A stretch of DNA of 64,000 nucleotides from positions 372,001-436,000 of the forward strand of contig CP128836.1 in assembly GCA_030388825.1 (NCBI GenBank), in the 5' to 3' direction. The DNA comes from Rossellomorea sp. AcN35-11. Lineage in GTDB: Bacteria; Bacillota; Bacilli; Bacillales; Bacillaceae_B. The position numbers were made by a program, and so were the translations under genes. How positions within the stretch are numbered: position 1 is the first letter of the stretch; the number at the start of each line of letters is the position of its first letter. Of the stretch, positions 3,712 through 53,402 are shown piece after piece. Below the pieces are notes generated by a model. That model was not told the DNA's origin, made no database searches, and was given only the letters and a program-made list of their open reading frames with translations.

Positions 3712-3868
3712 TATAATGGTATATATACTCATTTAATTATTAATATTTTCTCTTTATGCAAGGAGAATGAACGTTTCTCAAAAACGCCGATATTAGCGCG
3801 ATCAACTGTTTGTTTACAGAATGTTGACCGTTAATATGGGCGTTTTTTATGTCCAAAAATTATTAAAG
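3712..3868 (+). promoter_or_regulatory. two-hairpin leader 1 (extended -10 + attenuator-like hairpin)
   Basis: TGC-TATAAT (-10 at 3712-3717) is followed by a small hairpin at 3748-3767 (TTCTC/GAGAA, loop with ATGC), then a long hairpin at 3781-3844 (AACGCCgATATTA with TAATATgGGCGTT) ending in a T-run, then GTCCA, then AAAGGAG. GTCCA can pair with the TGGGC of the hairpin's 3' arm. Confidence 0.7.
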
Positions 3869-3880
3869 GAGAGATCAAGT

Positions 3881-4213
3881 ATGACGAAAAGAGTTTTAGT
3901 ATTAATGGAGGTTCCAGAAGAACAAACGGTAGAAGGCACTAAATACAGCGTAGAACAGGCTTTTGGGAAAGATGTCCAAGTTCATGAGGTTAGTTTCTAT
4001 CCTTTTGAACAAAACGTTTTAAAACCACATTACCTGGATATCTATGATGACGCTGAGGCTTACTTCAGCAGTAACGATATCTTTTTATCCAATGACCAAT
4101 TAGCACGAATTGCCGAGATTGTTGGTGAAGAAGAAGCTGATAATGGTGAAGCCCGCAACAACCGTATTATAAGCGCAGCTAACTTACTAGGATATTTACC
4201 AGAGGAGGACTAA
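3881..4213 (+). CDS. hypothetical protein, first gene of an operon
   Basis: 110 residues, acidic, probably cytosolic, starting MTKRVLVLMEVP. The ATG follows AAAGGAGAGATCAAGT right after leader 1; the earlier in-frame GTG (3821) is inside the leader. It is spaced 3 nt from the next gene, so the two are probably co-translated. No family recognised. Confidence 0.8.
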   Translation: MTKRVLVLMEVPEEQTVEGTKYSVEQAFGKDVQVHEVSFYPFEQNVLKPHYLDIYDDAEAYFSSNDIFLSNDQLARIAEIVGEEEADNGEARNNRIISAANLLGYLPEED

Positions 4214-4216
4214 TGC

Positions 4217-4543
4217 GTGCAAGCAATTAATTGGGCAAGAAGCTATAGTTTGAAGAATCCTATGAATCAAAAACAAATGGAGGATGCCATTCAATCTCTT
4301 TCTGAAGGCAAATTAGGGGATATGGATGATTACAGCCAAGAAGCATTCACTAAAACATTTTGCGAGGGTATTCTTCATTTAGAAGGTAATCTTCTATACG
4401 GAAATGACATTCACCCACACAAAGCCGAACGATTCATCAATCCAACCGAATACAAGAGAAAGTACAAGGAAGTCGAGAAAATTGTAGCGAATTCCATCGA
4501 AAGACAAAAAAGATTATATCTCCAAATGATCAACTCAAAATAA
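4217..4543 (+). CDS. hypothetical protein
   Basis: 108 residues, GTG start behind AGGAGG. Predicted mostly helical with a basic C-terminus. It follows the 3881 gene by 3 nt in the same operon. No known domain seen. Confidence 0.75.
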   Translation: MQAINWARSYSLKNPMNQKQMEDAIQSLSEGKLGDMDDYSQEAFTKTFCEGILHLEGNLLYGNDIHPHKAERFINPTEYKRKYKEVEKIVANSIERQKRLYLQMINSK

Positions 4544-4574
4544 ACCAAAAATTATTGAATAGGAGCGATTACAC

Positions 4575-5189
4575 ATGTTTGAAGCATTCGCACAAGGAAG
4601 ACAAGATGAATTCTTGAAATTTGATGAATTAAAGGTAGAACTACTTCTTACGCATGGTACACCAAAAGACCACCTTTGGTTAACAGATCTTGACCTTACT
4701 AAAGATGGGAAAGGCATTTTATTCTACCATGAAAGTGGAAATATGCTTTCGTATGGTATTTTTGAATTAGACAGTGTAGAATCCTTTGAAGAAGCATGCA
4801 AAGAGGTATCACGTTACTTCACCGGGGATGAACCTACTAATAATGAAAAAGGAGAGACCGAATTGAAATCTTTATTTGACGGTACCTTTATTGAAGATAT
4901 TAATTTTAAAATTGATACTGATCGAATGTTAGCATTTGAATTCAGAGCTGCAGAAGAAGTTTACATTGAGGAAGGCGACTTCGACGCAGATACATTCCGC
5001 ATTGAGTACTTCAAAGAATCCAAACAAATCTACGTAGCAACGACGTTTGATGAGGATTATGACGTAGGCGAGGAAATCACTCATCTTTGCGATACGAAAG
5101 CAATGTTTGAGTATTGCCTAGAAAAAGATAAAACTGAAGAAATCGAAGACCATACAGAAGAATATATCCAACATTGTGAAGGTGAATAG
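4575..5189 (+). CDS. hypothetical acidic protein
   Basis: 204 residues, strongly acidic in the second half (many Glu/Asp), no membrane segment. Two similar-sized parts are joined by a charged linker around residue 93 (TGDEPTNNEKGE). The ATG follows AGGAGCGATTACAC. It lies in the operon started by leader 1, with the next gene 2 nt downstream. No family recognised. Confidence 0.75.
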   Translation: MFEAFAQGRQDEFLKFDELKVELLLTHGTPKDHLWLTDLDLTKDGKGILFYHESGNMLSYGIFELDSVESFEEACKEVSRYFTGDEPTNNEKGETELKSLFDGTFIEDINFKIDTDRMLAFEFRAAEEVYIEEGDFDADTFRIEYFKESKQIYVATTFDEDYDVGEEITHLCDTKAMFEYCLEKDKTEEIEDHTEEYIQHCEGE

Positions 5190-5191
5190 TA

Positions 5192-5395
5192 ATGAATACA
5201 TTTACTTTCGCAGAGGTTACATGGGTTAGGGTCTTTGTTTATTACAACAAGCCCTTCCTTTCCCTAGAAGAGATCACTTTAGACGGTAAGGAAACACCAG
5301 TAGAGGGTTGGATGAGGTTAGATGAATTCGAGAACAATGAAGAAATCTCATTCTTATACAGCAGTAAAGAGAGTATTATCGAAGGAACTTCATGA
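5192..5395 (+). CDS. small hypothetical protein
   Basis: 67 residues; starts 2 nt after the previous stop, so translation is likely coupled. Acidic, no recognised domain. A terminator follows. Confidence 0.65.
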   Translation: MNTFTFAEVTWVRVFVYYNKPFLSLEEITLDGKETPVEGWMRLDEFENNEEISFLYSSKESIIEGTS

Positions 5396-5405
5396 TTATC
5401 TTTAT

Positions 5406-5443
5406 GAACCCGTTTCTATTTGGTTAGAAGCGGGTTCTTCTTT
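5406..5443 (+). terminator. rho-independent terminator (CCCG...CGGG type)
   Basis: GAACCCGttTCTA pairs with AGAAGCGGGTTC, followed by TTCTTT. It ends the 3881-5395 operon. Confidence 0.75.
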
Positions 5444-5558
5444 GCTTCCTTAGAACATTGCAAGAATTGATGAGCCAATCATTACAACATGAACCTAATC
5501 AAGTTTACATGCTAATATAAGAACAGTCGGAAAAAGATACTAAAGGAGAAGATTATAG

Positions 5559-5981: not shown

Positions 5982-6023
5982 TACTCCGTTAAGGGTACTC
6001 AAATGGACAAGAGGAGCAGGAAA

Positions 6024-9114: not shown

Positions 9115-9810
9115 ATGAAGAAAATTTTTATGAGTTTGTTAGTGTTACTATTACTAGTATCGCAAGGAGCGGGAGCTTTTGCTCATTCAAACTCCGAACC
9201 AACGTTAAAGGAAGATTGCGATTGCGGAGACGGAACTAACATAACAGCCTCTGATGTTCCTGACGGTATTACGGTAATGAGCAACAAGGAAATCAAGAAA
9301 ATTGCCGGAAAACTTCATAGAAATAAAGAATATAAAGAGTCATTAAAGTGGTTTAAAGAAAGCGGTCTAGAGATAAGCGATCTAGTAGCAGGTCTGCATA
9401 TGGAGGAGCTAGTATTTGAAAATGGAAAGAGCTTTAGTAATATTAATCACATAGCCTTTAATGGAATATCTTCAGATAAAAAGACTAGAGGATTAATAGT
9501 TGCAATTATTGACAATGAAACAAATGAACTATTGCACCTAAAAGCTGACATATTTTACAATATTAGTGAAGACGGATTTGAATCAATGCAAACATATACA
9601 CCTGGTGAAGGTATTGGAGAAAAAATAACGAAAAAGAAATTAGATCAGGCAAAAGAAGGAGAATTCTCAACGCTTGGCTTTAGTCCATGTGTGCACGCAT
9701 CTGTTTGGATTTGTATTTACCACTGCGGTATGTGGGCGCTAATTAATGGTATCGCAGGGGTGACATGTTCAGCAATATGCGGTTATGCATTTGCGTATGC
9801 CTGCTCATAA
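9115..9810 (+). CDS. bacteriocin precursor-like protein (immunity/bacteriocin fusion type)
   Basis: 231 residues. It has a signal peptide (ending near AGAFAHS), a soluble middle domain, and a C-terminal 45 residues with seven Cys and long hydrophobic runs (CVHAS, CIYHC, TCSAICGYA, YACS). This order matches the Bacillus proteins named 'putative immunity/bacteriocin fusion', related to halocin C8, in which the Cys-rich C-terminus is released as the antimicrobial and the N-terminal part may protect the producer. Processing here is inferred. Strong AGAAAGGGGAAGG ribosome site; next gene 9 nt downstream. Confidence 0.7.
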   Translation: MKKIFMSLLVLLLLVSQGAGAFAHSNSEPTLKEDCDCGDGTNITASDVPDGITVMSNKEIKKIAGKLHRNKEYKESLKWFKESGLEISDLVAGLHMEELVFENGKSFSNINHIAFNGISSDKKTRGLIVAIIDNETNELLHLKADIFYNISEDGFESMQTYTPGEGIGEKITKKKLDQAKEGEFSTLGFSPCVHASVWICIYHCGMWALINGIAGVTCSAICGYAFAYACS

Positions 9811-10205: not shown

Positions 10206-10324
10206 GGCAAAGCTAATAATCTACTCAAAATTCGAACACCCCCAACTTCAATAAACAATACCACAAAAATTTAGTACCAAACAATTCTGAGAGATGAAAC
10301 TAGTTAATCCATTAGCCGTCATGC

Positions 10325-10500
10325 TATAATGGAACTATTAACAAACCTAACTTTTCACTTTCTTTCCTCTTTGCAGAGAAAAGACTAATCCATAAGCGCA
10401 TTTCAGCAATGTGATCTTTTTCGTAAAACTACGTATGTAGAAGATCATCTTGCTGAAATGCGTTTTTTTGCATTTCAAAAAAAACATACTTTAAGGAGAG
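10325..10500 (+). promoter_or_regulatory. two-hairpin leader 2
   Basis: TGC-TATAAT (10325-10330), small hairpin 10362-10383 (CTTTCCTCT/AGAGAAAAG, loop TTGC), then a very stable hairpin 10396-10462 (CGCATTTCAGCAA / TTGCTGAAATGCG) with TTTTTTT. GCATTTCA after the U-run is an 8-bp exact complement of TGAAATGC in the 3' arm. Confidence 0.7.
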
Positions 10501-15977: not shown

Positions 15978-16164
15978 GTTTTCCTCCTAGATGTATGAAA
16001 GTGTGATTGCAACAATCTCTAATACAGGTTAACAATATATCACTCTCATGTATACAAATGGAACATCCATTAAAAATAAGGGGGACACCTAAGAGAACAA
16101 TTATAAAATCATCAGGTCCAAAATCTATACCTCTACAAAAGAGGTAAATTTAAAAGGTATTTGA

Positions 16165-16332
16165 TATAATAAGATTATTAGTTCCTTAATTTCATTTTGT
16201 ATTTTCTCTTAGGCAGAGGGAATATCCGTTTTTAAAACACTCCATCCGAGTGAACAAGTTATCTTTTCTAAAGATAAAATTCATTGTTCCTTTGGATGGG
16301 GTGTTTTTTTATTACCTCAAACATTTTAAAAA
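16165..16332 (+). promoter_or_regulatory. two-hairpin leader 3
   Basis: TGA-TATAAT (16165-16170), small hairpin about 16203-16222 (TTCTCT/AGAGGGAA), then hairpin 16236-16303 (ACACTCCATCCGA.. with ..GGATGGGGTGT) and TTTTTTT. ACCTCA after the U-run can pair with TGGGGT in the 3' arm. Confidence 0.65.
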
Positions 16333-20782: not shown

Positions 20783-20820
20783 TATACATAGAATGTTCGA
20801 TATCCCGGTGAGGCATGTGC

Positions 20821-20972
20821 TATAATTAGTACAAACATCTTAATTTCAACTTCACTTTTCTATGCAGAAAAGAGTTCAATTCTTTAAAAAGCATTTGATT
20901 TATGCTCCTGTTCATACAGACGTATAAATGAAATGCTTTTTTACATTTCAAAATTAATAAAACAAAAGGAGA
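20821..20972 (+). promoter_or_regulatory. two-hairpin leader 4
   Basis: TGC-TATAAT (20821-20826), small hairpin about 20853-20875 (ACTTTTCT/AGAAAAG, loop ATGC), then AAAGCATTTGATTTAT paired with ATAAATGAAATGCTTT and a T-run (20887-20942). CATTTCA after the U-run is an exact 7-bp complement of TGAAATG in the 3' arm. Confidence 0.7.
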
Positions 20973-24188: not shown

Positions 24189-26645
24189 ATGAGGAGAAGT
24201 AAAAAAAAGAAGAAAAATTATATCAAAGTCAGGATAAATATTTTGTTCTTTGTTATCTTTTTATTATTTTCATCCCTTCTTTTAAGATTAGGTTATGTCC
24301 AAATTGTATCCGGTGAGGAGTATAAACGAATAGTTGAACAAACTGAAGAAGTAACAGTGAGTTATAGCGTTCCTAGAGGTAAGATATATGACCGAACAGG
24401 GAAAGTCATTGTAGACAATAGAGCCAGAAACGCAATTACCTATACTCCTCCTCAATACTCTCGTCCCGATGAAATGCTGACAGTGGCTAGAAAGCTTGCT
24501 CAGTACATCGAAATGGATACTGAAGCTGTAACTACAAGAGACAAAAAAGACTTTTGGATCCTTCTTAATAGTGAAGCAGCAGATAGTTTAGTGACAACCA
24601 AAGAAAAAGAAGAGATTAAGAATAATAAAGATTTGACAGAGAATGAGAGCAACGGAAGAATTTACAGATTAATTTTGGACCGTATCTTAGAAGATGACCT
24701 CAACAGCTTGACGGAACAAGACCTGGAAGATCTTGCGATTTATCGAGAATTTAGCAACGGATATGCATTAACCCCAAAAATCATTAAAAATAAAGGAGTT
24801 ACAGAAGAAGAGTTTGCTGTAGTCAGCGAACACTTATCAGAACTGCCTGGTATAAACACAACTACTGATTGGGAAAGAACCTATCCGTTCGATAATACTC
24901 TAAGGTCTATTTTAGGAAAGGTATCTTCATCACGCGAAGGACTTCCAAGAGAAAACATCGATACTTACTTGGCAAGAGGATATAAACGTAATGATAGAGT
25001 AGGTACTAGTCAATTAGAGCTTCAATACGAAAATGTCCTAAGAGGTCAGAAAGAAGAGATTAAAAACATAACCAAAGATGGAATCGTACTTAAATCCGTA
25101 TTAGTGAAAAAAGGAGAGCGCGGCAAGGATCTGGTTATTACAATTGATATTGATCTTCAACAAGCAGTAGAGGAAATTGTTACAGAAGAACTGCTGAAAA
25201 ACGTAAAGCAACCGAGATCTTCCTTTCTCGATCGTGCTTATGTGGTCATGATAGACCCAAATACCGGAGAAATATTAGCTCTTGTAGGGAAGAGAGCACT
25301 AAAGGATGAAGAAACCGGCAAGCACTATGTAATTGACGATGCATTAGGCACTTATACTAGCTTCTATGAGGTTGGATCAGCAGTAAAAGGAGCTACGGTA
25401 CTTACGGGGTATATGACCGGCGTTCTAACTCCAGGGCAATCCTTAGTGGATGAACCCATCAAAATAGCAAGGACCCCTAAGAAAGCATCTTGGTTTAATC
25501 AGAAGGGGTGGGCGAATCAATCGATGAACGATCGATTCGCATTAGAAATTTCATCAAACTCCTATATGTTCAAGGTGGCCATGCGGTTAGCAGGAAACCC
25601 CTATTATGTACCACATGCCGGAATAAAAGGTACAGAGTCCGATTTGATCAATATGAGGAATCATTTTAATCAGTTAGGTTTAGGAGTGAACACAGGAATC
25701 GACTTACCAGGGGAAGTTGACGGGTATCAAGGTCGATTCACAACGCCAGGTAACCTACTGGACTTCGCCATAGGACAGTTCGATACCTACACCCCTTTAC
25801 AACTTGCTCAATACGTATCTACAGTAGCTAACGGAGGGTACAGAATACAACCACACATCTTAAAAGAGGTACGTCAGCCGGATACCGAAACAGGACAACC
25901 TGGACCCATTCAAATGATTAAAGAAACCAAGGTTTTGAACAAGGTGAATGTTACACCAGAACAACTTCTTAACGTCCAAAAAGGGTTTTATCAGGTATAT
26001 CATAATTCAAGGGGGACTGCAGCAAGCCACTTCAGAAACGCACCATATGTTGCAGCTGGTAAGTCTGGAACCGCACAATCCTATCATAGGGATCCCAAGA
26101 CAGGGGAATTTTATGATACCTATAACACTACCCTTATTGGATATGCACCTTATGAGAATCCCGAAATAGCTTTCTCGACCGTTGTTCCAAAATCACATAA
26201 TTCTTCAACAGATCCCTATATAAATAAAGAGATCTCCAGAAAAGTAATGGATGCCTATTACAAGCTAAAGAAAAAGCGAGAGATAGGGGTACAAGAAGTC
26301 CCAAGCGAACTTCTGGAAGAAGAGGTTGAAAGTGTTGATGCAAACACAGAAACGAATGTGATTCATCCTAATGGTAACGAACAGTTACCCTCCTTATCAG
26401 ATGAAACAACAGGCAACAACTCGGATGTATTAGAAGAAAGTGAACCAGAACAACCAACGAGTGAAGATATAGAACAAGACACAGACGCTCTTACAGAAGA
26501 GGCACATGAAGGAGAAGAGGTTCCAAGAGGAGAAATCAATGAAGATGAAATAGAGTCCGTTTCAGAACCTTCCGTAGTCATGGAAGTCCAAGATAACGAG
26601 GTGGACGAAACAACCAATGAGGAAGAATATTTTTCTACTGAGTAA
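24189..26645 (+). CDS. class B penicillin-binding protein (peptidoglycan transpeptidase)
   Basis: 818 residues. A Lys/Arg-rich start and one transmembrane helix (about 18-36) anchor it outside the membrane. The PBP dimer domain follows, then the transpeptidase with SAVK (Ser 397, Lys 400), SSN (455-457) and KSGT (625-628). It crosslinks peptidoglycan stem peptides. A strongly acidic, Ser/Thr/Glu-rich tail (about 715-818) is unusual and probably disordered; no PASTA domain. It is the first gene of a co-directional block with NrnA-like, CdaA and CdaR. It resembles PBP2b/PbpI-type enzymes. Confidence 0.92.
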   Translation: MRRSKKKKKNYIKVRINILFFVIFLLFSSLLLRLGYVQIVSGEEYKRIVEQTEEVTVSYSVPRGKIYDRTGKVIVDNRARNAITYTPPQYSRPDEMLTVARKLAQYIEMDTEAVTTRDKKDFWILLNSEAADSLVTTKEKEEIKNNKDLTENESNGRIYRLILDRILEDDLNSLTEQDLEDLAIYREFSNGYALTPKIIKNKGVTEEEFAVVSEHLSELPGINTTTDWERTYPFDNTLRSILGKVSSSREGLPRENIDTYLARGYKRNDRVGTSQLELQYENVLRGQKEEIKNITKDGIVLKSVLVKKGERGKDLVITIDIDLQQAVEEIVTEELLKNVKQPRSSFLDRAYVVMIDPNTGEILALVGKRALKDEETGKHYVIDDALGTYTSFYEVGSAVKGATVLTGYMTGVLTPGQSLVDEPIKIARTPKKASWFNQKGWANQSMNDRFALEISSNSYMFKVAMRLAGNPYYVPHAGIKGTESDLINMRNHFNQLGLGVNTGIDLPGEVDGYQGRFTTPGNLLDFAIGQFDTYTPLQLAQYVSTVANGGYRIQPHILKEVRQPDTETGQPGPIQMIKETKVLNKVNVTPEQLLNVQKGFYQVYHNSRGTAASHFRNAPYVAAGKSGTAQSYHRDPKTGEFYDTYNTTLIGYAPYENPEIAFSTVVPKSHNSSTDPYINKEISRKVMDAYYKLKKKREIGVQEVPSELLEEEVESVDANTETNVIHPNGNEQLPSLSDETTGNNSDVLEESEPEQPTSEDIEQDTDALTEEAHEGEEVPRGEINEDEIESVSEPSVVMEVQDNEVDETTNEEEYFSTE

Positions 26646-27826: not shown

Positions 27827-28633
27827 GTGGTATTAGATATTACTTTAGCGATCGTCGATTTGCTAATCGTAACCTTTTTACTCTACAAAACTATAATGAT
27901 CTTTCATAATACAAAAGCGATTCAAATATTAAAAGGCATCGTCGTTATTTTGATTGTATGGGTAGCAAGTGGAGTCTTAGGTTTAAATACGTTGAAATTT
28001 ATCATTTCACAATTATCCTTATACGGTATCCTCGCATTAATCATTTTATTCCAACCTGAAATCAGAAACGCCCTTGAAAAATTAGGAAGGAAGAATTTCA
28101 CTTACAAATCCTCAACCAATAAAGAATCACACTCCAACTACAAATTAATTGAAGACATCATCCAATCATCTACCCACATGAGCAAACACAAGATAGGAGC
28201 TCTAATTTGCATTGAACTAGAGGACTCTCTATCAGAATATGTCCAAACAGGAATTGAATTGAATTCAAAAACTTCAAAAGAACTATTAATTAGTATTTTT
28301 TCTGGGAAGGTCCCGCTGCATGATGGCGCTTTAATCATTCGAGGAGGACGAGCAGAGGCCGCTAGTTGTTTCTTACCCTTATCAGGTAACAACTCCCTTT
28401 CTAAAGAATTAGGTACGCGTCACAGGGCAGGAGTGGGCTTGAGTGAGCTATCGGATGCTTTAACCGTGATCGTAAGCGAAGAAACAGGAAGCATTTCGGT
28501 TACTAAGGACCATAAGCTCCACAGGGGTGTTTCGTTAGAAGTGTTAAGGAATCTCTTGGAAGAATCATTGATTGAAAAGAAGGAGAAACCAAAAATTAAA
28601 CCTTTTCTGAAGGGAGGGTTTAGAAGAAAATGA
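27827..28633 (+). CDS. cdaA: diadenylate cyclase CdaA
   Basis: 268 residues. Three N-terminal transmembrane helices (about 5-75), then the DAC (DisA_N) domain with LHDGALII (DGA, 166-168) and GTRHRAGVG (RHR, 198-200), the two motifs that bind ATP and metal. It makes c-di-AMP from two ATP at the inner membrane face. The GTG start follows GAAAGGGGGAGCAAA. It overlaps cdaR by 4 nt, as in the chromosomal operon, but glmM is absent. A plasmid or phage copy would add c-di-AMP to the host pool. Confidence 0.93.
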   Translation: MVLDITLAIVDLLIVTFLLYKTIMIFHNTKAIQILKGIVVILIVWVASGVLGLNTLKFIISQLSLYGILALIILFQPEIRNALEKLGRKNFTYKSSTNKESHSNYKLIEDIIQSSTHMSKHKIGALICIELEDSLSEYVQTGIELNSKTSKELLISIFSGKVPLHDGALIIRGGRAEAASCFLPLSGNNSLSKELGTRHRAGVGLSELSDALTVIVSEETGSISVTKDHKLHRGVSLEVLRNLLEESLIEKKEKPKIKPFLKGGFRRK

Positions 28634-29625
28634 AAAAAGAAATCTTCATAAGAATCGGGGTCTTTATCATTTCATTATTGCTGGCTAGCATCTTAGCCAT
28701 AAACGTTAGTACCTTAGGGGAAGAGAGAAATCATGAGTTTTCATTCACAAACTCCACTGAGGGGATATATGTAATCGAAGAACTTAATATCGAATACCGT
28801 TATGATAAAACAAAGTATGAAGTGGTCCCTTTTGTAACGAAGCCATATGCAGTCATTAAAGGAGATAAAAGTAAAATTAATTTAATGAAATGGGGCGAAG
28901 AACCTCAATTTTACATTGAACTTTCAGGTAAGCCACCAGGCACTTACAGGGAGGAGATTAGTTACACAGGAATTAACAAGGATCTGGAAGTGGAATTTTA
29001 CCCGGGTATTGTTGACCTGAGGTTAATGGAGCAGCAAACCATTCGATTAACTCCATCTATTGAGTTAATAGGGATGGATAAGGTTAAAGAAAACTACATT
29101 ATATCAGTGCCAGAATTATTGAAAGAGGAAGTCCTTATTCGCGATATTCAAGATAAACTGAACCAGGTTGGCCAAGTAAAAGGGGAAATAGATGTTTCAA
29201 AATTAACGAAAACAAAAGAATTTGAAGTCTCCTTATCCGTTTACAACCGAGATGGTAACTTAATGCCGGATATTAATCTATTAGATAAGAACATTAAAGT
29301 GAAGGTGCCGGTCGAAAAGAAAGTGACAATTGTAAAAGAGGAAGTGATCAAAAAAATTGTAGTGGTTGAAGCACCAAAGGAACCAAAAGTAGAAAATCCT
29401 TTACCGAAACAAGAAGGTATATTATCATTTGTTAACATTCCTGAAAATCTAGACCTAACCAATACTTCAAGTGACCTAAAATGGACAGGTAACGTAACCA
29501 TTGATGTAAAAGGGTTTAAGGAAGGAAAGTATGAGATGACAGTAGATGATGCAGGTACTAAAAAGACTGTGAAATTTGTCTTAAAGTCAAATCCTCCTGA
29601 AGAAAATGAAGATACAGATGAATAA
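28630..29625 (+). CDS. cdaR: CdaR (YbbR-domain regulator of CdaA)
   Basis: 331 residues, overlapping the cdaA stop (ATGA). One N-terminal membrane helix (about 7-25) and extracytoplasmic YbbR-type beta repeats (EEISYTGINKDLEVEFYP type segments near 100-120, and later ones), then a Glu-rich tail. CdaR binds CdaA at the membrane and tunes its activity. Here it ends the PBP/NrnA/CdaA/CdaR block and is followed by a terminator. Confidence 0.9.
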   Translation: MKKEIFIRIGVFIISLLLASILAINVSTLGEERNHEFSFTNSTEGIYVIEELNIEYRYDKTKYEVVPFVTKPYAVIKGDKSKINLMKWGEEPQFYIELSGKPPGTYREEISYTGINKDLEVEFYPGIVDLRLMEQQTIRLTPSIELIGMDKVKENYIISVPELLKEEVLIRDIQDKLNQVGQVKGEIDVSKLTKTKEFEVSLSVYNRDGNLMPDINLLDKNIKVKVPVEKKVTIVKEEVIKKIVVVEAPKEPKVENPLPKQEGILSFVNIPENLDLTNTSSDLKWTGNVTIDVKGFKEGKYEMTVDDAGTKKTVKFVLKSNPPEENEDTDE

Positions 29626-31397: not shown

Positions 31398-31571
31398 TCT
31401 CCTTTGATAGTTGTTTTAGAAGCATAAAAAACACTTCTTTTAAGGGACCAAACTCCAATTCCTAAACACAGTTAGAAAAAAGATCACCTAAAAGAAGTGT
31501 TTTTAATTTGAATCAGCCTCTGCATAGAAGCGATATAGTTAATGGTTAAATAGGGTATATCTATAATTATA
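31398..31571 (-). promoter_or_regulatory. two-hairpin leader M (minus strand)
   Basis: Read on the minus strand: TGC-TATAAT (plus 31566-31571), small hairpin GCTTCT-ATGC-AGAGGC near 31515-31535, then ACACTTCTTTT paired with AAAAGAAGTGT and TTTTTT. CTTCT after the U-run pairs with AGAAG of the 3' arm. It shows that the leader design is used on both strands. Confidence 0.7.
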
Positions 31572-31714
31572 GCATTTACGATTTCAGGATTCTATTATGG
31601 CAAAACTTTTATTGTACATTAGGTATTTTACTTTACGGTGGAAACGAAACCTCACCCAACCATAGATTTTTAAAATCCAGGCAAGAGAAAATCACTTTCC
31701 CATTGAGAGTGTGC

Positions 31715-32070
31715 TACAATATATATATACTTCTTTTAATTTTATTTTTCTCCCTTTCAAGAGCAAGGGCGTACATTATCTCTTAAGTATTTTTCTTCAG
31801 GAGAGGAATGAAATTAGTATATCCATATAAGGTTATAAAGGCACTTTGATTAAGCCATCGACATTCGCTTGAATGAGTACTGTTTATTCAGTCATTGATG
31901 TTTAATCTAAGTGCTTTTTTGCTTATTCAGGGCTTATCTAATTTCGAAGAACCCAAAACCCTGAACTAATCCACCAATTTAACAAAAGCGCCGATTCAAG
32001 CGATTTAATGTCAAAACCTTAAATGTTTGAATGGACGCTTTTTATTGTCCAAAAGAATAGGGAAGAGGAG
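31715..32070 (+). promoter_or_regulatory. leader 5 with two successive terminator-like hairpins
   Basis: TGC-TACAAT (31715-31720). The first hairpin is GCACTTtGATTAA with TTAATCtaAAGTGC and TTTTTT (31841-31920), then TTCAGGG/CCCTGAA (31926-31965), then a second U-run hairpin AAAGCGcCgATTCAA with TTGAATgGaCGCTTT (31985-32043). GTCCA after it is an exact complement of TGGAC in the second 3' arm. Confidence 0.65.
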
Positions 32071-34169: not shown

Positions 34170-35270
34170 TTACTTTTCAGAATCTAAATACTCCCACTTC
34201 TCGTTAAGAACAAATTCGTATATACGAGCAGATTGAACGTCCGAATATCCTAAAATTTCTTGTAATTTATCCAAATCTTTAAATTTATTATAATGTCTTA
34301 CTCCGAAACTATGACGAAGCTTATGGGCTGTAAGAAGGGGCTTATCAAAGGCCTGTGAGTATTTTTCGATCATGTTCTGAATTGCTCTTTTGGTTATTGC
34401 CTGTCCAGGGGATTGCTGGTTTGTTAAAAATAAAGAGTATTGATTTTCAGATGGTTCGTATTGTTCAGTACGCATGTTCAAATATCTCTGTAAATCAGAA
34501 GATGCCCGTTCTGTTAAATCTATACCAATGGATTTTCCACTTTTCCTCGAAACATGTAATATCCCTTTATCTAAATCAACGTCATTCATTGAAAGGTTTG
34601 CGACTTCTGCAGCTGTGATCCCTGTCTCTAACATTAACGAGATGATGGCCAAGTCACGTTCTTTATTCTCTTGGTGCCTTCGCCTGCTCAATTTTTTCAA
34701 GTTTGGAAGTTCACCATATCCTTTAATAATGAAATTCAAGTACTCCTCGATTTCATCTCCTACAAGAATACTCCTTCGAATTCTACTAGCAGAAACGACA
34801 GGGTCGTAGACGACATTTTCTACTTCGACTTCTTCTATAACGTTATGAGATAACAACGGCTCCATTTTCTCATCTTTAGCGACATAGGTTAACCAATAGA
34901 ACAACGCACGCAATGCAGCGAACTTTCGATGTATTGTTTGGTGATTTAATTTTTTTCCCTTCACCTTACGGCCGCCACGGTATTCTCGTTTATCTAGGTA
35001 GGATACATAGTCTTTTTGCACCTGACTTACCTTTAACTCTTCCAGTGTGTTGAGAGATATATGTTTAATTTCTTCAACGTCTGATATTCCTTCTTCAAGG
35101 ATCCACTCTAAAAAATCCTCAATATCTATTGCGTACCCCCGCAGAGTAGAAGGGGACAGGCTATGCAACTTACTCTTAAAGTAATCCTGGATGTACCCGG
35201 GGAACACCTTCATATGTCTAAACAAATATGTACGATCTTGCTCAGCAGTTTTTTTCAACAACTCAATCAC
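34170..35270 (-). CDS. XerS-like tyrosine recombinase with substituted catalytic residues
   Basis: 366 residues. The N-terminal SAM-like core-binding domain (LSPSTLRGYAIDIEDFLEWI) and C-terminal catalytic domain follow the Firmicutes XerS layout. Lys (about 243/246), HKLRHSF (His 316, Arg 319) and Tyr 351 are present. The first Arg of the catalytic set is replaced by Thr 219 (GITAAE instead of the usual GxRxxE), and the position usually His/Trp is Tyr 342 (LGY). It may be inactive, a DNA-binding protein, or unusual in mechanism. It would otherwise resolve replicon dimers. GTG start behind AAGGGTGAG. Confidence 0.85.
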   Translation of the reverse strand: MIELLKKTAEQDRTYLFRHMKVFPGYIQDYFKSKLHSLSPSTLRGYAIDIEDFLEWILEEGISDVEEIKHISLNTLEELKVSQVQKDYVSYLDKREYRGGRKVKGKKLNHQTIHRKFAALRALFYWLTYVAKDEKMEPLLSHNVIEEVEVENVVYDPVVSASRIRRSILVGDEIEEYLNFIIKGYGELPNLKKLSRRRHQENKERDLAIISLMLETGITAAEVANLSMNDVDLDKGILHVSRKSGKSIGIDLTERASSDLQRYLNMRTEQYEPSENQYSLFLTNQQSPGQAITKRAIQNMIEKYSQAFDKPLLTAHKLRHSFGVRHYNKFKDLDKLQEILGYSDVQSARIYEFVLNEKWEYLDSEK

Positions 35271-35496
35271 CTCACCCTTATAAAAGTACTAGATACATAC
35301 GTTCGGTTAATATCTATTTTACCAACAAAAAATAAATCTACCAAATACAGAAACAATTAGGAAAAAATTATCGCTCGTAATAGCCATTTCTTTTTATGAC
35401 CTTTACTATATTGTAGTAACAAGAAAATCTAGAATATATTTCAATTAATATAAATCGGTTTCGATTAATTTCAAAGGTTAGAGGGGCGACAGACAT

Positions 35497-36823
35497 ATGA
35501 ATAAAATGTTAATTAAAGGCGGCAATAAATTAAACGGAAAAGTAAGAATTAGTGGAGCGAAAAACAGCGCGGTTGCTATATTACCTGCTACCATTCTTTC
35601 AGATACACCCGTAAAGATTAATGGTTTACCAAATATTTCAGATGTGCATATTCTGACTGATTTATTAAATGATGTTGGAGGAGAAGCAACTCTTAATAAT
35701 AATACACTCACGTTAAACCCTGATGGGATGAACTTCAATCCCGTAAAAAAAGATAAAGCTCAAAAACTGAGAGCTTCCTATTATTTTATGGGAGCTATGT
35801 TAGGAAAATACAAAAAAGCGCAAATTGGCTTACCGGGAGGATGCCACTTAGGTCCTCGACCGATCGATCTGCACATCAAAGGATTCGAGGCTTTAGGTGC
35901 AAAGGTATCGGAAACAAATGATGGAGATATGTATCTTCACGCTGAAGAACTTCGCGGTGCTGATATCTACTTAGACTTTGCAAGCGTGGGTGCGACTATT
36001 AACATTATGCTTGCAGCCTCTAAAGCAAAAGGAAAAACTGTAATTACAAATGCTGCTCAGGAGCCAGAGATTGTCGATGTGGCCAATTTCTTAATGAGTA
36101 TGGGAGCAGACATTAAAGGCGCAGGAACAAACACCATTTCTATACAGGGAGTGGAGGAGCTAAAAGGGGAAGAACACACCATCATTCCTGACCGTATGGA
36201 AGCAGGTACTTATACTATTTTAGCTGCAGGCTATTGGAGAAAAAATTGTAATTGAAAACATAATCCCTGAACACTTAGAACCCCTATTCGCCAAGCTGAA
36301 AGAAATGGGAGCAAATTTATTTGTAGAAGAAGATCGCGTTACAGTAACAAGAACCAATGGACTGAAATCAGTTGACGTTACAACACAAGTTCACCCAGGA
36401 TTCCCAACTGATTTACAACAACCCTTCACAACTCTATTGAACGTCGCTGAAGGCAAAGGGACTGTCACAGATACTATTTATAACGAGCGTTTCAAACAAA
36501 TCCACGAGATCTCTAAAATGGGTGGAGACGGAAAAGTAAAAGGAAATACCGTTACCATCGCTGGCAAGAATCATCTTCATGGTGCAAAAGTGAAGGCCAG
36601 TGATTTAAGAGCCGGAGCCGCATTAGTGATTGCCGGCCTAATCGCAGAAGGTGTTACTGAGATCACAGGAGTTGAACATATTGAAAGAGGATACTCTGAG
36701 ATTGTAGAAAAACTTACGACTTTAGGAGCAACTATCTGGTATGAAACACAAGAGGAGTACCGCTTTTCCAAGCCTCAGTTTCGCAAGCCGATCCTAAGTA
36801 ATTTAAGTTTAGTCAACAGCTAA
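35497..36823 (+). pseudogene. murA: UDP-N-acetylglucosamine 1-carboxyvinyltransferase (MurA), one frameshift
   Basis: First committed step of peptidoglycan synthesis: transfer of enolpyruvate from PEP to UDP-GlcNAc. The start [20 protein letters not shown] and the catalytic loop [13 protein letters not shown] (Cys 116, the fosfomycin target) are intact; [10 protein letters not shown] and the C-terminal RAGAALVIAGL follow. The frame breaks near 36229 (GCAGGCTATT; removing one G gives LAAAIGEK). Repaired length is about 441 residues, slightly longer than usual. It is closest in feel to MurAB/MurZ-type proteins. ATG behind AGAGGGGCGACAGACAT. Chromosomes always carry murA, so this would be an extra copy. 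Confidence 0.85.
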
Positions 36824-36882: not shown

Positions 36883-36896
36883 CCTAAACAACGTGA

Positions 36897-37060
36897 TACA
36901 ATTATCTCAACACTTTATTAATTCATCTTTGCGTTATCTCACGAGAGATACCTTGTACACAAATAAAAAGCGTTTCTCTAAGCGTATAATTGAGTCTTAA
37001 AAGACCGGTTTATCCGTTTAAAGAAGCGCTTTTTTTGCGTTTCAAAAAAACTTTGGAGGG
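36897..37060 (+). promoter_or_regulatory. two-hairpin leader 6
   Basis: TGA-TACAAT (36897-36902), small hairpin TATCTC-ACGA-GAGATA (36935-36950), then AAAAGCGtTTCT paired with AGAAgCGCTTTT and TTTT (36966-37036). GCGTTTC (37037-37043) pairs with GAAGCGC of the 3' arm with one G-U. Confidence 0.7.
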
Positions 37061-38059: not shown

Positions 38060-38686
38060 ATGAAAACAAAACTATCAGTAATCACACTATTAAGCTCAAC
38101 TTTACTATTAGGCGCTTGCAGTGAGGCCAGTGTAAAGGAAGTATCCACAAACAAAACCGAAGAAACAGTTAAGACTAATAAAAAAGAAGAAGTCAAGAAT
38201 ACAGAAACCGTGATGTTCAATACCGGAGATGAAATGGTTGAATTAAAACTAAAGTCTGATTTCTATGGAGATAAGAAAGTTTACGTTCCTGAAGGCATGG
38301 AAGCAAAACATTCTGAGGAACAAGAAAATGAAAAATTTTCTTTGCGCCTTGAGGGAGAAGAAGGTGCATTAAAGGATGTAATCATTGCTTTCTGGGAAGA
38401 GGTACCATGGAAGCCAGGTTTAGAAAGGAATTTAAGGTGGTTTGATAGGCACATAAACTTCTCGAACGAATTACCATCAGAAGAAGTCATAGACCTTGAG
38501 AAGTACGGATTACAAGATAAGTTCGACAAAGGGTACAAACTAACTCACGGGGACACCATGTTGGTATACAAGGTGATGAAGTATAAAGGTCCAGAATTGT
38601 ACGAAGCGAGAGTATACATTGAGGACATGAAGAAATTCGATAATGATGAGTTCGTAATGACCATGTTCCAAAACATGGAGCAATAA
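38060..38686 (+). CDS. predicted lipoprotein
   Basis: 208 residues. The lipobox LLGAC (Cys about 20) predicts a lipid-anchored surface protein; a Lys/Glu/Thr linker leads to a folded domain rich in Trp and charged residues (WEEVPWKPGLERNLRWFD). TTAGGAGGAATTCAATC precedes the ATG. Function unknown. Confidence 0.8.
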   Translation: MKTKLSVITLLSSTLLLGACSEASVKEVSTNKTEETVKTNKKEEVKNTETVMFNTGDEMVELKLKSDFYGDKKVYVPEGMEAKHSEEQENEKFSLRLEGEEGALKDVIIAFWEEVPWKPGLERNLRWFDRHINFSNELPSEEVIDLEKYGLQDKFDKGYKLTHGDTMLVYKVMKYKGPELYEARVYIEDMKKFDNDEFVMTMFQNMEQ

Positions 38687-38687
38687 A

Positions 38688-38724
38688 AAAAAAGACCACG
38701 CTGCAAACTAAGCGTGGTCTTTTT
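38688..38724. terminator. bidirectional terminator
   Basis: AAAAGACCACGCT pairs with AGCGTGGTCTTTT. It overlaps the last codons of the leftward zinc-finger gene. Confidence 0.8.
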
Positions 38725-39202
38725 TGTTTTCTTTAGCATATTTCTGATAATGCTTAGAGCAATAACCCTTGGACTGATGAAAACGATCGCAGCCCGGGAA
38801 ATTGCAAATCCGCTCACCTTGTTCATTCAAAGTCACTTCTATTGTTTCTCTTTTACTTGTCGTCCCATTCCTCAACTGTTTATAATGCTTTCCACACCTA
38901 CCTTTAGCTTGAACAGAGCGAGTACACCCTTCAACTTCGCACACCCGGTGACCATTTATGATAAATTGTATAGCATCCACTTCTTTTAATTTTTCTAAAT
39001 GAGTAGTACAAAGGGGAATACCCTCTAGAGAATAACTATCACAATCTTCCACCTTACATATTACTTTTGAGGTATTCTGCTGCGACTTAACGTAATTGGC
39101 ATCTCCGTATTTTCTCCATCTTTGATAATGTTTAGAGCACATATTTTTTACAGCGGCTTTCTTATTGCAATACTCAACATTACATATACGTAGACCGTCC
39201 AT
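38708..39202 (-). CDS. protein with four tandem C-x(4)-C...C-x2-H zinc fingers
   Basis: 164 residues made of four repeats of about 35-40 residues: CNVEYC...CSKHY, CKVEDC...CTTHL, CEVEGC...CGKHY, CNFPGC...CSKHY. Each can bind one zinc with three Cys and one His. Between them are basic helices (QRWRKYG, KQLRNG). Such repeats occur in phage and plasmid proteins and likely bind nucleic acid. The start ATG 39202 follows AAGGAGATTGAA; the longer frame to 39241 has no ribosome site. Confidence 0.75.
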   Translation of the reverse strand: MDGLRICNVEYCNKKAAVKNMCSKHYQRWRKYGDANYVKSQQNTSKVICKVEDCDSYSLEGIPLCTTHLEKLKEVDAIQFIINGHRVCEVEGCTRSVQAKGRCGKHYKQLRNGTTSKRETIEVTLNEQGERICNFPGCDRFHQSKGYCSKHYQKYAKENKKDHA

Positions 39203-39283
39203 TTCAATCTCCTTATCTTTTATTTGATATGATTTTATCACTTAGGTTAGTAGAGAAACAAAGGAATTAATAAGATAGTATGT

Positions 39284-39446
39284 TACAATAAAATAAATCA
39301 TGTTTAATTTTTTATCTGCACATCTTATGAAAGGTGAGCGCCATATCTTTAAGAATACGCCGATCCGAGCGTCCAAAGCTGCACTATGCAGAATCTTTGA
39401 ATGTTGGGATGGGCGTTTTTTATTATGCCCAAACAAAAACTAGGAG
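39284..39446 (+). promoter_or_regulatory. two-hairpin leader 8
   Basis: TGT-TACAAT (39284-39289), small hairpin CATCTT-ATGA-AAGGTG (about 39321-39335), then ACGCCgATCC paired with GGATgGGCGT with an inner CAAAG/CTTTG and CTGCA/TGCAG stem, and TTTTTT (39356-39420). GCCCA after the U-run pairs perfectly with TGGGC of the 3' arm. Confidence 0.75.
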
Positions 39447-42369: not shown

Positions 42370-42439
42370 GATGAAAGAAAACTAAGTTACAAACCATCTA
42401 CAACAAATACTCTTAACCCTTGTTATAATGATTTTATGT

Positions 42440-42592
42440 TATACTATATATAATCTAATTATTTAATTCTATACACTTCTCATTTATGAAACTGAGAACT
42501 TTAAAACGCCTAATCAAGCGTTCAAGTCTGCTTTGCAGATATATTGAACTTTTGATTGGGCGTTTTTTATGTCCAACAAAATCAAAGGAGGA
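42440..42592 (+). promoter_or_regulatory. two-hairpin leader 9
   Basis: Two possible extended -10s: TGT-TATAAT (42424-42429) and TGT-TATACT (42440-42445). Small hairpin TTCTCA-...-TGAGAA with ATGA loop (42478-42499), then AACGCCtAATCAA paired with TTGATTgGGCGTT (inner GTTCAA/TTGAAC and CTGC/GCAG) and TTTTTT. GTCCAA (42571-42576) pairs with TTGGGC of the 3' arm. Confidence 0.75.
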
Positions 42593-44364: not shown

Positions 44365-44452
44365 GGCTAAGTCAAAACTAGATATCCTTATACTATTGCT
44401 CATTTAGGGAAAAAGGTTGAGGGTGAAGATCCTGGTGGCGATGTTTATGTGT

Positions 44453-44607
44453 TATACTTTATATATACCTTTTTAAATTCACAAAACTTCTCCCTTATGA
44501 AAGAGAGAAACCCAAAAACGCCGAATCATGCGTTCAAGCTGCTTATGCAGATTAATTGAACTCATGGTTGGGCGTTTTTAATTTTTTGTCCAACAAATTC
44601 AAAGGAG
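44453..44607 (+). promoter_or_regulatory. two-hairpin leader 10
   Basis: TGT-TATACT (44453-44458), small hairpin TTCTCCCTT-ATG-AAAGAGAGAA (44488-44509), then ACGCCgAAtCATG paired with CATGgTTgGGCGT (inner GTTCAA/TTGAAC, CTGC/GCAG) with U-run (44517-44581). GTCCAAC (44588-44594) pairs over 7 bp with GTTGGGC of the 3' arm. Confidence 0.75.
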
Positions 44608-44812: not shown

Positions 44813-45376
44813 ATGGTAAGAGATTATTGTAGAGCTTGTGGCAAAATACATTGGAACAACTACATTACAGGTACAGAATATGGAGATTTAGCAATGTGTA
44901 ACAAAGAATGTAGCGATTATTATAAAGGTGACCTGGAAGGGAAAATTGGAACGGAAACAATCGAGGGACATGAGGTGATATTGTATTTTAACCAAGAGCT
45001 TTTCAAAGAACCCATGGAAGTTGCAGTGCACCGCAAGGAGGACCACTTGATCGGTCCAAAATATGTAGAATTCGCAACATTACGAACAAGAAACCTTCAT
45101 ATCGCTTGTACCTTTGGATATGACGGATACAAAGAAGTAACATCTACACATTTTAAATTCCGGATCTTGGAACTTAATGAACAGGGTGCTTGGAGAAGGA
45201 CGAGGAAAGCCATACCGGTCGAACACATTAAAGCCAATCCACCAGAAACAAAAGAAGAATCTTTAGAGAAATTAAGAAGGGTGTTTGAGCAATATTTAGC
45301 CTATTACAAAATGTCAGAAGGCGGACCGGGAGGAAGTCATACAGATAACCAACTTCAGCAGCTAGCCTTATTTTAA
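44813..45376 (+). CDS. hypothetical protein with N-terminal zinc ribbon
   Basis: 187 residues. CRACGKIH and CNKECSDYY near the N-terminus form a likely zinc ribbon; a beta-rich middle and a C-terminus ending QQLALF follow. GAGGAGATAAGA before the ATG; 15 nt after the Cys-rich gene. No family recognised. Confidence 0.7.
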   Translation: MVRDYCRACGKIHWNNYITGTEYGDLAMCNKECSDYYKGDLEGKIGTETIEGHEVILYFNQELFKEPMEVAVHRKEDHLIGPKYVEFATLRTRNLHIACTFGYDGYKEVTSTHFKFRILELNEQGAWRRTRKAIPVEHIKANPPETKEESLEKLRRVFEQYLAYYKMSEGGPGGSHTDNQLQQLALF

Positions 45377-45383
45377 TAATATT

Positions 45384-45420
45384 CTCCCGCTTCTTTGAAC
45401 AATACAAGGGGCGGGTCTAA
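45384..45420 (+). terminator. terminator-like hairpin (CGGGT family)
   Basis: CTCCCGCTTC...ATACAAGGGGCGGGT; weak T-run. Confidence 0.45.
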
Positions 45421-45530
45421 TAAAGCATCTCTTATGAGTGATTAATCTATTCAGTTAGAAAAAGCTGTTATCAGCTCTTAATCATTGATAAGAGATGCTT
45501 TTTTTGCATTTCTAAAACCAATTAAAGGAG
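45421..45530 (+). promoter_or_regulatory. leader 11 (attenuator-like hairpin, no own promoter seen)
   Basis: AAGCATCTCTTAT..TGATTAA pairs with TTAATCA..ATAAGAGATGCTT over more than 20 bp with inner GCTG/CAGC and TTTTTTT (45422-45505). GCATTTCT (45506-45513) pairs with AGAGATGC of the 3' arm (one G-U). Confidence 0.65.
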
Positions 45531-46419: not shown

Positions 46420-46420
46420 G

Positions 46421-49880: not shown

Positions 49881-49917
49881 AAAGAGGATGATAATTCAGA
49901 TCAGCGAATGAACGTGC

Positions 49918-50036
49918 TATACTGAAGTCAGGGAACAACCATGAATACTTTAACAAATACACAGGTAAGTATAAAAACGCTTGAGCGAACGAATCTAGAT
50001 ACGATTCTTTGCTCGAGCGTTTTTTATTTAGGAAGG
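49918..50036 (+). promoter_or_regulatory. leader 12
   Basis: TGC-TATACT (49918-49923), then AAACGCtTGAGC..GAATC paired with GATTC..GCTCgAGCGTTT and T-run (about 49974-50026), then GGAAGGAGG. No post-U-run complement is seen in this copy. Confidence 0.6.
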
Positions 50037-52163: not shown

Positions 52164-52372
52164 TCCATTTCTCCTCTCTTAAGTCGTACCTGATATACAT
52201 ACCGTTAGAACTAGTTGACGGAACGGAAACAGGAAATTGGTCATATGTATATACTTATTCTGCATAGAGTAAATTATATATATATTTTCATAATATTTCC
52301 ACAATTGTTCTGAATATCCTTTATAATAGAACAATACGAACCAAAAATTAAAGTATTGGAGGTAGAACCATA

Positions 52373-53187
52373 ATGCTACAATGCCCTAAATGTCATTATG
52401 AAAATGAAGGAGGGGAAGTTTTGTGAAAGGTGCGGTTCTCCAGTAGGTAACACTGCTACTTCTAGTGAAACAGCTGCAGCAATATCTACGGAACCGAGAC
52501 GCAGCCAAGCTATAAACAATCAGTATCTTGAAGGTGCGAAAAACATATCCAGGTCTTACTTTAACTACTTTCTAGACGTACTAAAAAGTCCTTATTCATC
52601 TTTTATGTCTGTAAGTAAGGAACACTTTACACACGCTATTATCACTATTGCTTTATATTCAATCCTAATACCTTTAACTCTTTACTTCGGGTTTAAGAGT
52701 CTGGTAGGGGACTTGAGTAACGCAACCGGTGGATTATTCGGGTCAGAGGAAATTTTCTCTTCCATTTGGTGATTTTGTTGTAAAACCTGTTATCTCATAT
52801 GCAATTTTCATTTTGTTGGTCCTTGCATTCACTATGGGAATTCTTAAATTAAGAAAGGTACAATTCGAATACCAAGATGTAGTGGCACGCTTTGGAACCT
52901 CCTTAATACCAACTGTTGCGATATTATTCATCGGTTTACTGTTGTCGATCATGAACGTGGATTATTTTTTGTTCTTCGTCTTAATTGGTTTCGCAGCAAG
53001 TGTCTTTATGGTTCCGGCATTGGTTATATCAAGCTACAAAACTGACTCAACTAACGGGTTTGATGCCATTTATGGAATCCTTATCACCTACACACTGACC
53101 TTTATCACTTTATATATCATGAACGATTTCTTATTCAGCACCATTAAAGGGTACTTTGTGAACCTTTTTAGCAATAGTTTCTTTTAA
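52373..53187 (+). pseudogene. zinc-ribbon multi-TM protein, two frameshifts
   Basis: ATG 52373 behind TTGGAGGTAGAACCATA. Starts MLQCPKCHYENEG, then breaks in GAGGGGAAG near 52415 (one G too many; repaired CPKC...FCERCG ribbon), and again near 52753 in AATTTTC. Repaired length is about 270 residues with an N-terminal zinc ribbon and about five membrane helices (Yip1-like shape). Paired divergently with the TcaA-like gene, as zinc-ribbon membrane proteins often are in Bacillus. Confidence 0.65.
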
Positions 53188-53189
53188 TC

Positions 53190-53230
53190 GAAACCCTCTT
53201 TAGTCTCGATGAACTAAAGAGGGTTTTCTT
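53190..53230 (+). terminator. rho-independent terminator
   Basis: AACCCTCTTTAGT pairs with ACTAAAGAGGGTT, followed by TTC and TTTTA. Confidence 0.8.
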
Positions 53231-53253
53231 TTATGTAGGACGCGGCAATGTGG

Positions 53254-53402
53254 TATACTGATAATATACTTTTTAAAATCAACAACTACTCGTTCCAAGC
53301 GGAACATTAACTAAAACACTTCCTTAAGTGAATGATTTATTGCTTTGGCAAGAATCGTACATTTAAGGAAGTGTTTTTTGCGCTTCAATAACTAAAAAAG
53401 GA
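53254..53402 (+). promoter_or_regulatory. two-hairpin leader 13
   Basis: TGG-TATACT (53254-53259), small hairpin GTTCC-AAGC-GGAAC (53292-53305), then AACACTTCCTTAA paired with TTTAAGGAAGTGTT and TTTT (53315-53378). GCGCTTC after the U-run pairs with GAAGTGT of the 3' arm (two G-U). Confidence 0.7.

Follow-up and report, generated by a model that had tools for sequence, protein, structure and literature searches.

LoaP is a NusG paralogue. In Bacillus velezensis it reads dfn, a small tetraloop hairpin in a 5′ leader that also contains an intrinsic terminator (accessible text of PMC12691694). ANTAR proteins (EutV, NasR and AmiR) act on dual hairpins, the second of which overlaps a terminator, and BglG, SacY and LicT act through the ribonucleic antiterminator (RAT), a small protein-stabilised hairpin that likewise overlaps its terminator (both as given in the accessible part of PMC3369931). 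ConAn of pLS20 and canT of Tn916 belong to Gram-positive mobile elements whose terminators are read through by a special system (accessible parts of PMC8955417 and PMC11658703). These are the systems most like the leader RNAs described here, which recur in a 64,000-nucleotide (nt) stretch of Rossellomorea sp. AcN35-11 (hereafter the window). The window spans positions 372001–436000 of contig CP128836.1 (C2), one of the two contigs of a 4,815,552-base genome; C2 is a large plasmid of 628,214 bp carrying conjugation genes. Large conjugative plasmids hold hundreds of genes whose silencing and activation are poorly known. We lean towards reading the leaders as transcription-attenuation switches that form one regulon of a large conjugative plasmid family of soil bacteria and are run by a plasmid-encoded RNA-binding factor.

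Leaders share a promoter, a hairpin and a terminator

Each leader is built, in order, of an extended -10 element, a U/A-rich stretch, a hairpin of about 8–9 bp with an ANG(C/A) tetraloop (P1) and a terminator with a U-run just before the ribosome site. Counted from the first base of the -10 element, the P1 loop begins mostly 42–51 nt downstream. In 54 leaders, the terminator lies 59–82 nt (median 72) from the -10 and its U-run measures 5–9 nt; the start codon follows 23–38 nt later in 45 of them. The loop has A at position 1 in 56 of 65 P1 sequences, G at position 3 in 60 and C or A at position 4 in 64.

These 65 are the hairpins that scored at least 12 among 81 model matches. Pairing and covariation were measured on a slightly different set of 65, made up of 61 of them and four weaker ones added by eye; the four dropped had a loop picked in another register or place. 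Paired letters filled 89.8% of the P1 cells compared with 58.6% after shuffling, a percentage that is inflated by the selection of P1 on pairing, although loop letters were not used in the scoring. The P1 covariation score was 0.922, as against 0.290 for shuffled and at most 0.284 for slid sequences.

No conserved core beyond the P1 loop was seen in the leaders. TTAATT occurs in the U/A-rich stretch of 15 of 27 C2 leaders (2.8 expected), a feature that the other plasmids do not share. Of boxA, known from the boxA–boxB elements of lambda nut sites, the exact core CTTTAA is not enriched before the hairpin (1 of 54 leaders, 1.9 expected); the looser YTWTTTAA is, with 13 of 54 (3.7 expected), and TGCTNTTTAA occurred in 1 of 54 (0.02 expected).

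The terminator overlaps two further pairings

A small hairpin, A1:A2, lies entirely within the 5′ arm of the terminator; examples are CACTC-ATCC-GAGTG and CGCTTT-ATA-AAAGCG. When the terminator forms, A2 is the mismatched part of its stem. Beyond the U-run lies a segment, C, that is similar to A1 and able to pair with the terminator 3′ arm (B). Both pairings were assessed by swapping segments among 54 leaders (73 candidates, of which 60 passed a P1 score of 12 and 6 were then dropped by eye). Swapping lowered A1:A2 pairing from 11.6 to 9.2 (z 9.2) and B:C pairing from 14.7 to 11.2 (z 9.4), and in neither case did any of 500 permutations reach the real value. Members beat their own median swap in 48 of 54 cases for A1:A2 and in 44 of 54 for B:C. 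Swapping the terminator arms gave z 30.8 and two control pairings gave z -0.8 and -3.6; pairing of C with A2 instead of B was rejected (z 0.2, compared with 8.6 for C:B). Taken plasmid by plasmid, A1:A2 was supported in all four replicons tested (C2 and the plasmids W01, W03 and W07 introduced below; at most 1 of 500 permutations), and B:C in C2, W01 and W07. Three mutually exclusive pairings, A1:A2, A1:B and B:C, are therefore conserved.

Mean energies were -31.3 kcal/mol for the terminator, -4.1 for A1:A2 (-1.5 shuffled) and -6.3 for B:C (-2.6 with C shuffled). The initial annotation, made from the letters of the window alone, had suggested selection on RNA structure, and the P1 covariation together with z values of about 9 in the two swap tests bears this out. 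Its two-hairpin architecture also stands; the A1:A2 antiterminator, segment C and a second class of leaders had escaped it.

That second class occurs on the same plasmids: a -10 a short way upstream of a GAAGCAC(N)G...GTGCTTT-like hairpin, whose U-run is followed at once by the Shine–Dalgarno sequence (SD), typical copies having neither P1 nor the switch. Examples on C2 are at 502621, 515313 and 111879, all on the minus strand, and similar hairpins occur on W04. A scan returned 39 rows on C2, 6 on W01, 5 on W03 and 4 on W07, a tally that includes some class I leaders, duplicates and hairpins of other kinds, and none on reversed controls. The existence of such plain leaders lends something to the idea that no leader is a switch, all being constitutive attenuators or 5′ hairpins that stabilise messenger RNA, for low expression and gene insulation. 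This is very unlikely, as it leaves the conserved P1 loop, its concerted change between plasmids (see below), A1:A2 and C unexplained.

Leaders are spread over a family of large plasmids

For searches beyond the window we used two covariance models, R1 from 26 chosen C2 leaders and R2 from 81 matches, which these sequences match by construction; the search behind R2 covered 86 sources, which included nothing from W04 and only portions of C2, W02, W03 and W05. The plasmids compared were from Peribacillus asahii (W01), Sporosarcina psychrophila (W02), Alkalihalophilus pseudofirmus (W03, pBpOF4-01), Paenibacillus (W04, NZ_CP043762.1, and W05), Lysinibacillus irui (W06), L. sphaericus (W07), Aneurinibacillus (W08), Cytobacillus (W11) and Priestia (W12), with two further plasmids, W13 and W14, that carry distant S1 paralogues.

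On C2, R1 gave 48 matches at E <= 1, 35 of them at <= 6.2e-5; among the weaker matches, a few are leaders echoed on the antisense strand. Genome-wide, with 150 of 4040 first-look candidates scored, all 35 leaders at E <= 0.001 lay on C2, and R2 found none at E <= 1 in a 400-kb sample of the chromosome (C1). A mechanical scan for an extended -10, a strong hairpin with a U-run 50–100 nt on, and then an SD and start codon returned 32 rows on C2 and 8, 4, 7, 0, 6, 3 and 7 on W01 to W07; it returned none in 400 kb of chromosome, and none from any of these records in reversed form. Of the C2 rows, 26 coincide with R1 matches and six look like different promoter–terminator arrangements. Hairpins with a U-run directly before an SD and start codon occur at 15.0 per 100 kb on C2 and 3.7 in the chromosome sample.

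Within the window, 12 of the 15 places at which the initial annotation had put its leader family were matched by R1 at E < 0.01. Ten of these 12 (all except 31712 and 45367) went into R1, making the model circular there, which the mechanical scan is not. The hairpin that had been reported at 45421 without a promoter corresponds to a match at 45367 that covers model positions 24–167 and lacks the promoter, as claimed. Three places fell away: 49918 has a promoter and a terminator, with no P1 seen and no R1 match; 37649 has a different hairpin and no R1 match; and 63962 has promoter-like sequence only, with no leader hairpin in the bases examined and no R1 match. The replicon-wide spread that had been claimed holds and extends further than was then seen, over the whole of C2 and to other plasmids. 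A lack of covariation support in homologous replicons had been named as grounds for refutation; such support is present.

With stricter filters, R1 at E <= 0.01 matched 12 places on W01, 5 on W02, 11 on W03, 0 on W04, 5 on W05, 7 on W06, 8 on W07 and 0 on W08. The single R2 match on W04 is a diverged leader of a primase-like gene. Two plasmids outside both models also carry leaders by R2: eight on a plasmid of L. fusiformis and four on one of Cytobacillus solani; in three of these four, P1, A1:A2 and the terminator can be made out by eye. R1 had no match in 35 other genomes of the taxonomic family, at 79 candidates scored per genome, which makes this a weak absence. Among 397 sampled genomes of the order, five besides the genome studied had a single R2 match at E <= 0.001; with seven candidates scored per genome, the absences are again weak.

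The plasmids so linked are related by their transfer genes. C2 encodes a VirB4-like ATPase of the type IV secretion system and a coupling protein, and the ATPase is 58–67% identical to its counterparts on W01–W07, compared with 32% for W08. C2 is thus one of a family of large plasmids that carry conjugation genes, and not a phage; a phage origin was rejected, as identity to phage records was 21–25% among the rows listed and no viral contig matched. The family probably transfers itself; database typing calls all seven of W01–W07 non-mobilizable.

The genes downstream of the leaders are diverse. A leader precedes an orthologous primase-like gene (DnaG-type zinc finger and DUF3854) in C2, W01, W02, W03, W05, W06 and W07, as does the diverged leader in W04. 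On C2 this gene is followed by ssb and a DNA polymerase III beta gene, and other leader genes there are of DnaX type, a polymerase III delta subunit (assigned by position) and a ligase. In W03 and W07, a leader stands directly before an NYN-domain gene.

The P1 loop changes in concert from plasmid to plasmid

Among R2 matches at E <= 0.1 on three Lysinibacillus plasmids, the P1 loop reads ANGC by eye in 14 of 14 leaders of L. sphaericus W07 (13 of 14 by the script's own pick) and ANAC in 18 of 18 of L. irui W06 (17 of 18 by the script). The L. fusiformis plasmid has ANAC in 7 of 8 by eye, one with an imperfect stem, and in 6 of 8 by the script. Such a change in concert within each plasmid implies, as its simplest cause, a recognition partner borne by the plasmid. 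All hosts being of one genus, the host polymerase is an unlikely cause.

The initial annotation had offered a shared antitermination factor, a ligand-sensing RNA or a set of small RNAs of about 150 nt. Of these, the shared factor is the best fit, given a P1 loop that is conserved and varies jointly within each plasmid. The lack of a conserved core beyond the P1 loop and the diversity of the downstream genes speak against a ligand-sensing RNA. Small RNAs of about 130–150 nt may be by-products of the leaders.

We suggest that an ordinary extended -10 promoter drives transcription and that the nascent RNA first folds P1 and then the small A1:A2 hairpin. By default, B would use the A1:A2 loop as a toehold, displace A2 and form the long terminator, leaving the gene off. 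A plasmid factor bound to P1 could hold A1:A2, or alter the polymerase so that B comes late; the polymerase would then pass the U-run, and C would pair with B and lock the open form. The earlier proposal that most of these genes are made only if RNA polymerase passes the terminator is compatible with this anatomy.

The anatomy itself leaves the sign of control unfixed, and a plasmid protein on P1 might instead favour the terminator as an autoregulatory or copy-number brake; the open form would then be the default as long as the protein is scarce, for instance in a newly entered cell. The replication-type genes behind C2 leaders may need such a brake. This arrangement is unlikely, however, given a terminator far more stable than A1:A2, which makes termination the likelier default.

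A further possibility, which we regard as doubtful, is that P1 acts in cis, altering its own polymerase without a dedicated protein, as put RNA or EAR (eps-associated RNA) do, so that the terminators block only spurious upstream transcription. There is one P1 near each promoter, two terminators come after leader 6, and RNA-based processive antitermination has precedents in mobile elements of Gram-positive bacteria and in the eps operon of B. subtilis (accessible parts of PMC8955417 and PMC11658703). Under such a scheme, however, the conserved terminator/antiterminator switch would be superfluous, and the ANGC and ANAC loops of the Lysinibacillus plasmids could hardly be explained by the host polymerase. 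There are also at least some terminators that no P1 or promoter precedes.

An S1-like protein is a candidate factor

To look for the plasmid factor that we favour, ORFs (open reading frames) were compared between plasmids; 21 C2 ORFs have matches in all six leader-rich plasmids, many of them transfer proteins and some antisense or repeated recombinases. Two small proteins of 116 and 186 amino acids (aa; A3 and A4) are found on C2 and on six of six leader plasmids but not on W04. PDB matches of A3 are weak (best E 0.009), and neither has a convincing family. Both were set aside as the factor, having no match in the L. fusiformis plasmid despite its eight leaders.

The only recognised RNA-binding domain among the shared proteins scanned belongs to an S1 paralogue of about 300 aa, encoded between the coupling protein and a relaxase-like gene. 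Its profile matches 30S ribosomal protein S1 (E 6e-21), the S1 domain was found in five of five members scanned, and the protein is present on W01–W07 and on the L. fusiformis plasmid. Matches to it occur in 99 plasmid records, a figure that takes in distant S1 proteins; in 18 the match spans 80% or more of its length. By elimination, this gene content points weakly to the S1 paralogue as the plasmid factor.

A possible sister lineage has a different element. Weak single matches on W11 (38665–38829, E 0.004) and W12 (9342–9504, E 0.008) carry CAACC-n-GGTTAGC at the P1 position, with a similar terminator design, on plasmids with a distant S1 paralogue. The element also occurs in the genomes G012 (its contig C2), G216 (contig C16) and G354 (contig C4), with a further copy on contig C1 of G012. 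It is possible, and we propose it tentatively, that a plasmid S1-like protein has coevolved with the P1 tetraloop and acts on dozens of terminators with three states (P1; A1:A2 versus A:B; B:C lock). By opening them it would jointly switch replication and other operons without recourse to transcription factors of the host; in a sister lineage, whose S1 paralogue is distant, CAACC-n-GGTTAGC would stand in the place of P1.

Several observations weigh against a regulon run by such a factor. The S1 copy on C2 falls below the Pfam cut-off (19.9 versus 22 bits), W04 has the paralogue yet one leader, W13 and W14 have distant paralogues and no R2 leaders, and the protein may simply be a transfer protein. 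The ORF comparison misses a fast-evolving factor or one under 60 aa, and the absence of A3 and A4 from the L. fusiformis plasmid counts here too. On the RNA side, the swap test gives B:C little support in W03 (the median swap was beaten by 4 of 8 members; 13 of 500 permutations), some A1:A2 stems have just 3–5 bp, at the low mean energy given above, and at leader 6 and the match at 45367 there are terminators that lack a typical P1, a finding left unexplained by a switch acting only locally. Many C2 copies may, finally, share ancestry.

Positions of the leaders and neighbouring genes

Table 1 Leaders and leader parts in the window (positions are those of the window; R1 entries are cmsearch scores)
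Feature	Position	Strand	Basis
Leader 1, from -10 to just before the start-codon region	3709..3869	+	R1 98.2 bits, E 4.4e-12; training member
Leader 1, extended -10 TGCTATAAT	3709..3717	+	read from sequence
Leader 1, P1 hairpin TTCTCTTT-ATGC-AAGGAGAA	3748..3767	+	P1 covariation
Leader 1, A1:A2 antiterminator CGC...GCG, 3 bp only	3785..3798	+	swap test, 54 leaders
Leader 1, terminator hairpin and U-run	3782..3848	+	hairpin analysis
Leader 1, segment C GTCCA, pairable with terminator 3′ arm TGGGC	3851..3855	+	swap test; A2:C control negative
Leader 2	10322..10489	+	R1 94.0 bits, E 1.8e-11; training member
Leader 3, A1:A2 = CACTC-CATCC-GAGTG	16162..16331	+	R1 104.5 bits, E 4.7e-13; training member
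Leader 4	20818..20963	+	R1 81.4 bits, E 1.5e-9; training member
Leader 5, divergent from leader 6	31405..31574	-	R1 84.9 bits, E 4.5e-10; training member
Leader 6, then a second terminator of the same design	31712..31907	+	R1 36.7 bits, E 0.0095; not training
Second terminator behind leader 6 (C2:404039), A1:A2-like arms, no P1 of its own	31985..32043	+	sequence
Leader 7	36894..37057	+	R1 93.0 bits, E 2.7e-11; training member
Leader 8	39281..39444	+	R1 105.1 bits, E 3.8e-13; training member
Leader 9	42437..42588	+	R1 102.5 bits, E 9.6e-13; training member
Leader 10	44450..44605	+	R1 102.6 bits, E 9.3e-13; training member
Leader-like terminator, no promoter, atypical first hairpin	45367..45527	+	R1 40.6 bits, E 0.0024; not training
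Promoter and terminator without P1, not counted as member	49915..50025 (approximate limits)	+	no R1 match
Leader 11	53251..53400	+	R1 95.5 bits, E 1.1e-11; training member

The window also holds, not far from a penicillin-binding-protein gene (24189–26645), a gene with DAC and CdaA_N domains (27827–29625) and, behind it, a YbbR-like gene. An EPSP-synthase-type ORF (35497–36255), which we take to be MurA-like, covers profile positions 2–247 of 417 only and lies near an integrase gene (34170–35270, minus strand).

Elsewhere on C2 are genes of core type: FlhB family (182282–183364), RecA (312563–313570), FtsZ (110209–111417), PolC type (615305–619621) and LigA (285927–287906). The FlhB gene suggests that there may be further flagellar genes among the ORFs of C2. 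There are 25 predicted tRNA genes, 20 at C2:486198–490574 and 5 at C2:354945–355998. Three proteins with relatives across the plasmids (C2:149290–151092, 268075–269907 and 272464–274377) presumably resemble group II intron proteins, and a group II intron RNA adjoins the leader at C2:148272.

On W04, two CRISPR-like arrays (clustered regularly interspaced short palindromic repeats) lie at 35421–36435 and from 164623 on, with a repeat that contains CGCACTCCATACAGAGTGCG. An apparent excess of ANAC-type hairpins on this plasmid was set aside as CRISPR-like repeats, among 40 of 110 rows.

Comparison with known systems

The initial annotation did not recognise the family, and an Rfam search of the window likewise gave 0 matches at gathering score; at 18 leader loci, two group II introns alone reached it. 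The leaders are undescribed in the literature searched, including the accessible parts of PMC2965389 and PMC2864571, which is no proof of absence as coverage of subscription papers was poor. The words plasmid and phage are absent from the main text of PMC2965389 as far as accessible; the accessible part of PMC2864571 has a Bacillus-plasmid motif, and this motif gave no Rfam match here.

Compared with LoaP, the loop differs: dfn has UNCG (PMC12691694, accessible text) and the leaders ANGC or ANGA, with ANAC in two plasmids. They also differ in occurring dozens of times per replicon and in carrying the A1:A2/B:C switch. A search for a LoaP-type NusG paralogue found one PF02357 match in the genome, on C1 (10 of 14 in a control set matched).

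The ANTAR arrangement of a second hairpin overlapping the terminator is seen here in the A1:A2 swap test. ANTAR hairpins, however, have hexaloops with A1 and G4 in both hairpins (PMC3369931, accessible part), unlike the P1 tetraloop with A1 and G3, and no conserved letters were seen by eye in the A1:A2 loops. PF03861, the ANTAR protein domain, had no match in the genome, nor in the control set.

ConAn and canT serve as one system per long operon, according to the accessible parts of PMC8955417 and PMC11658703, unlike the one leader per operon found here. In 45 of the 65.8 kb of pLS20, the best R1 match had E 0.39 and R2 had none at E <= 1. ConAn1 is presumably among pLS20 genes 28–30; all three were compared, and none has a convincing homologue on C2, W01, W03 or W07 (best E 0.005). 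RAT attenuators are not known to have a separate P1, and they serve sugar genes. Neither LoaP nor ANTAR nor ConAn/canT fits as the home of the leaders.

If our reading is right, a plasmid-wide attenuation regulon would place a whole replicon under control at the level of elongation, its recognition code would be visible in the ANGC and ANAC tetraloops, with a short list of candidate factors, and the leaders would be a new class of structured RNA, without an Rfam match as searched, and a marker for the plasmid family. Antitermination at leader terminators is of a known kind; what would set this case apart is the number of copies, in the dozens, the additional lock segment and the setting in a family of plasmids.

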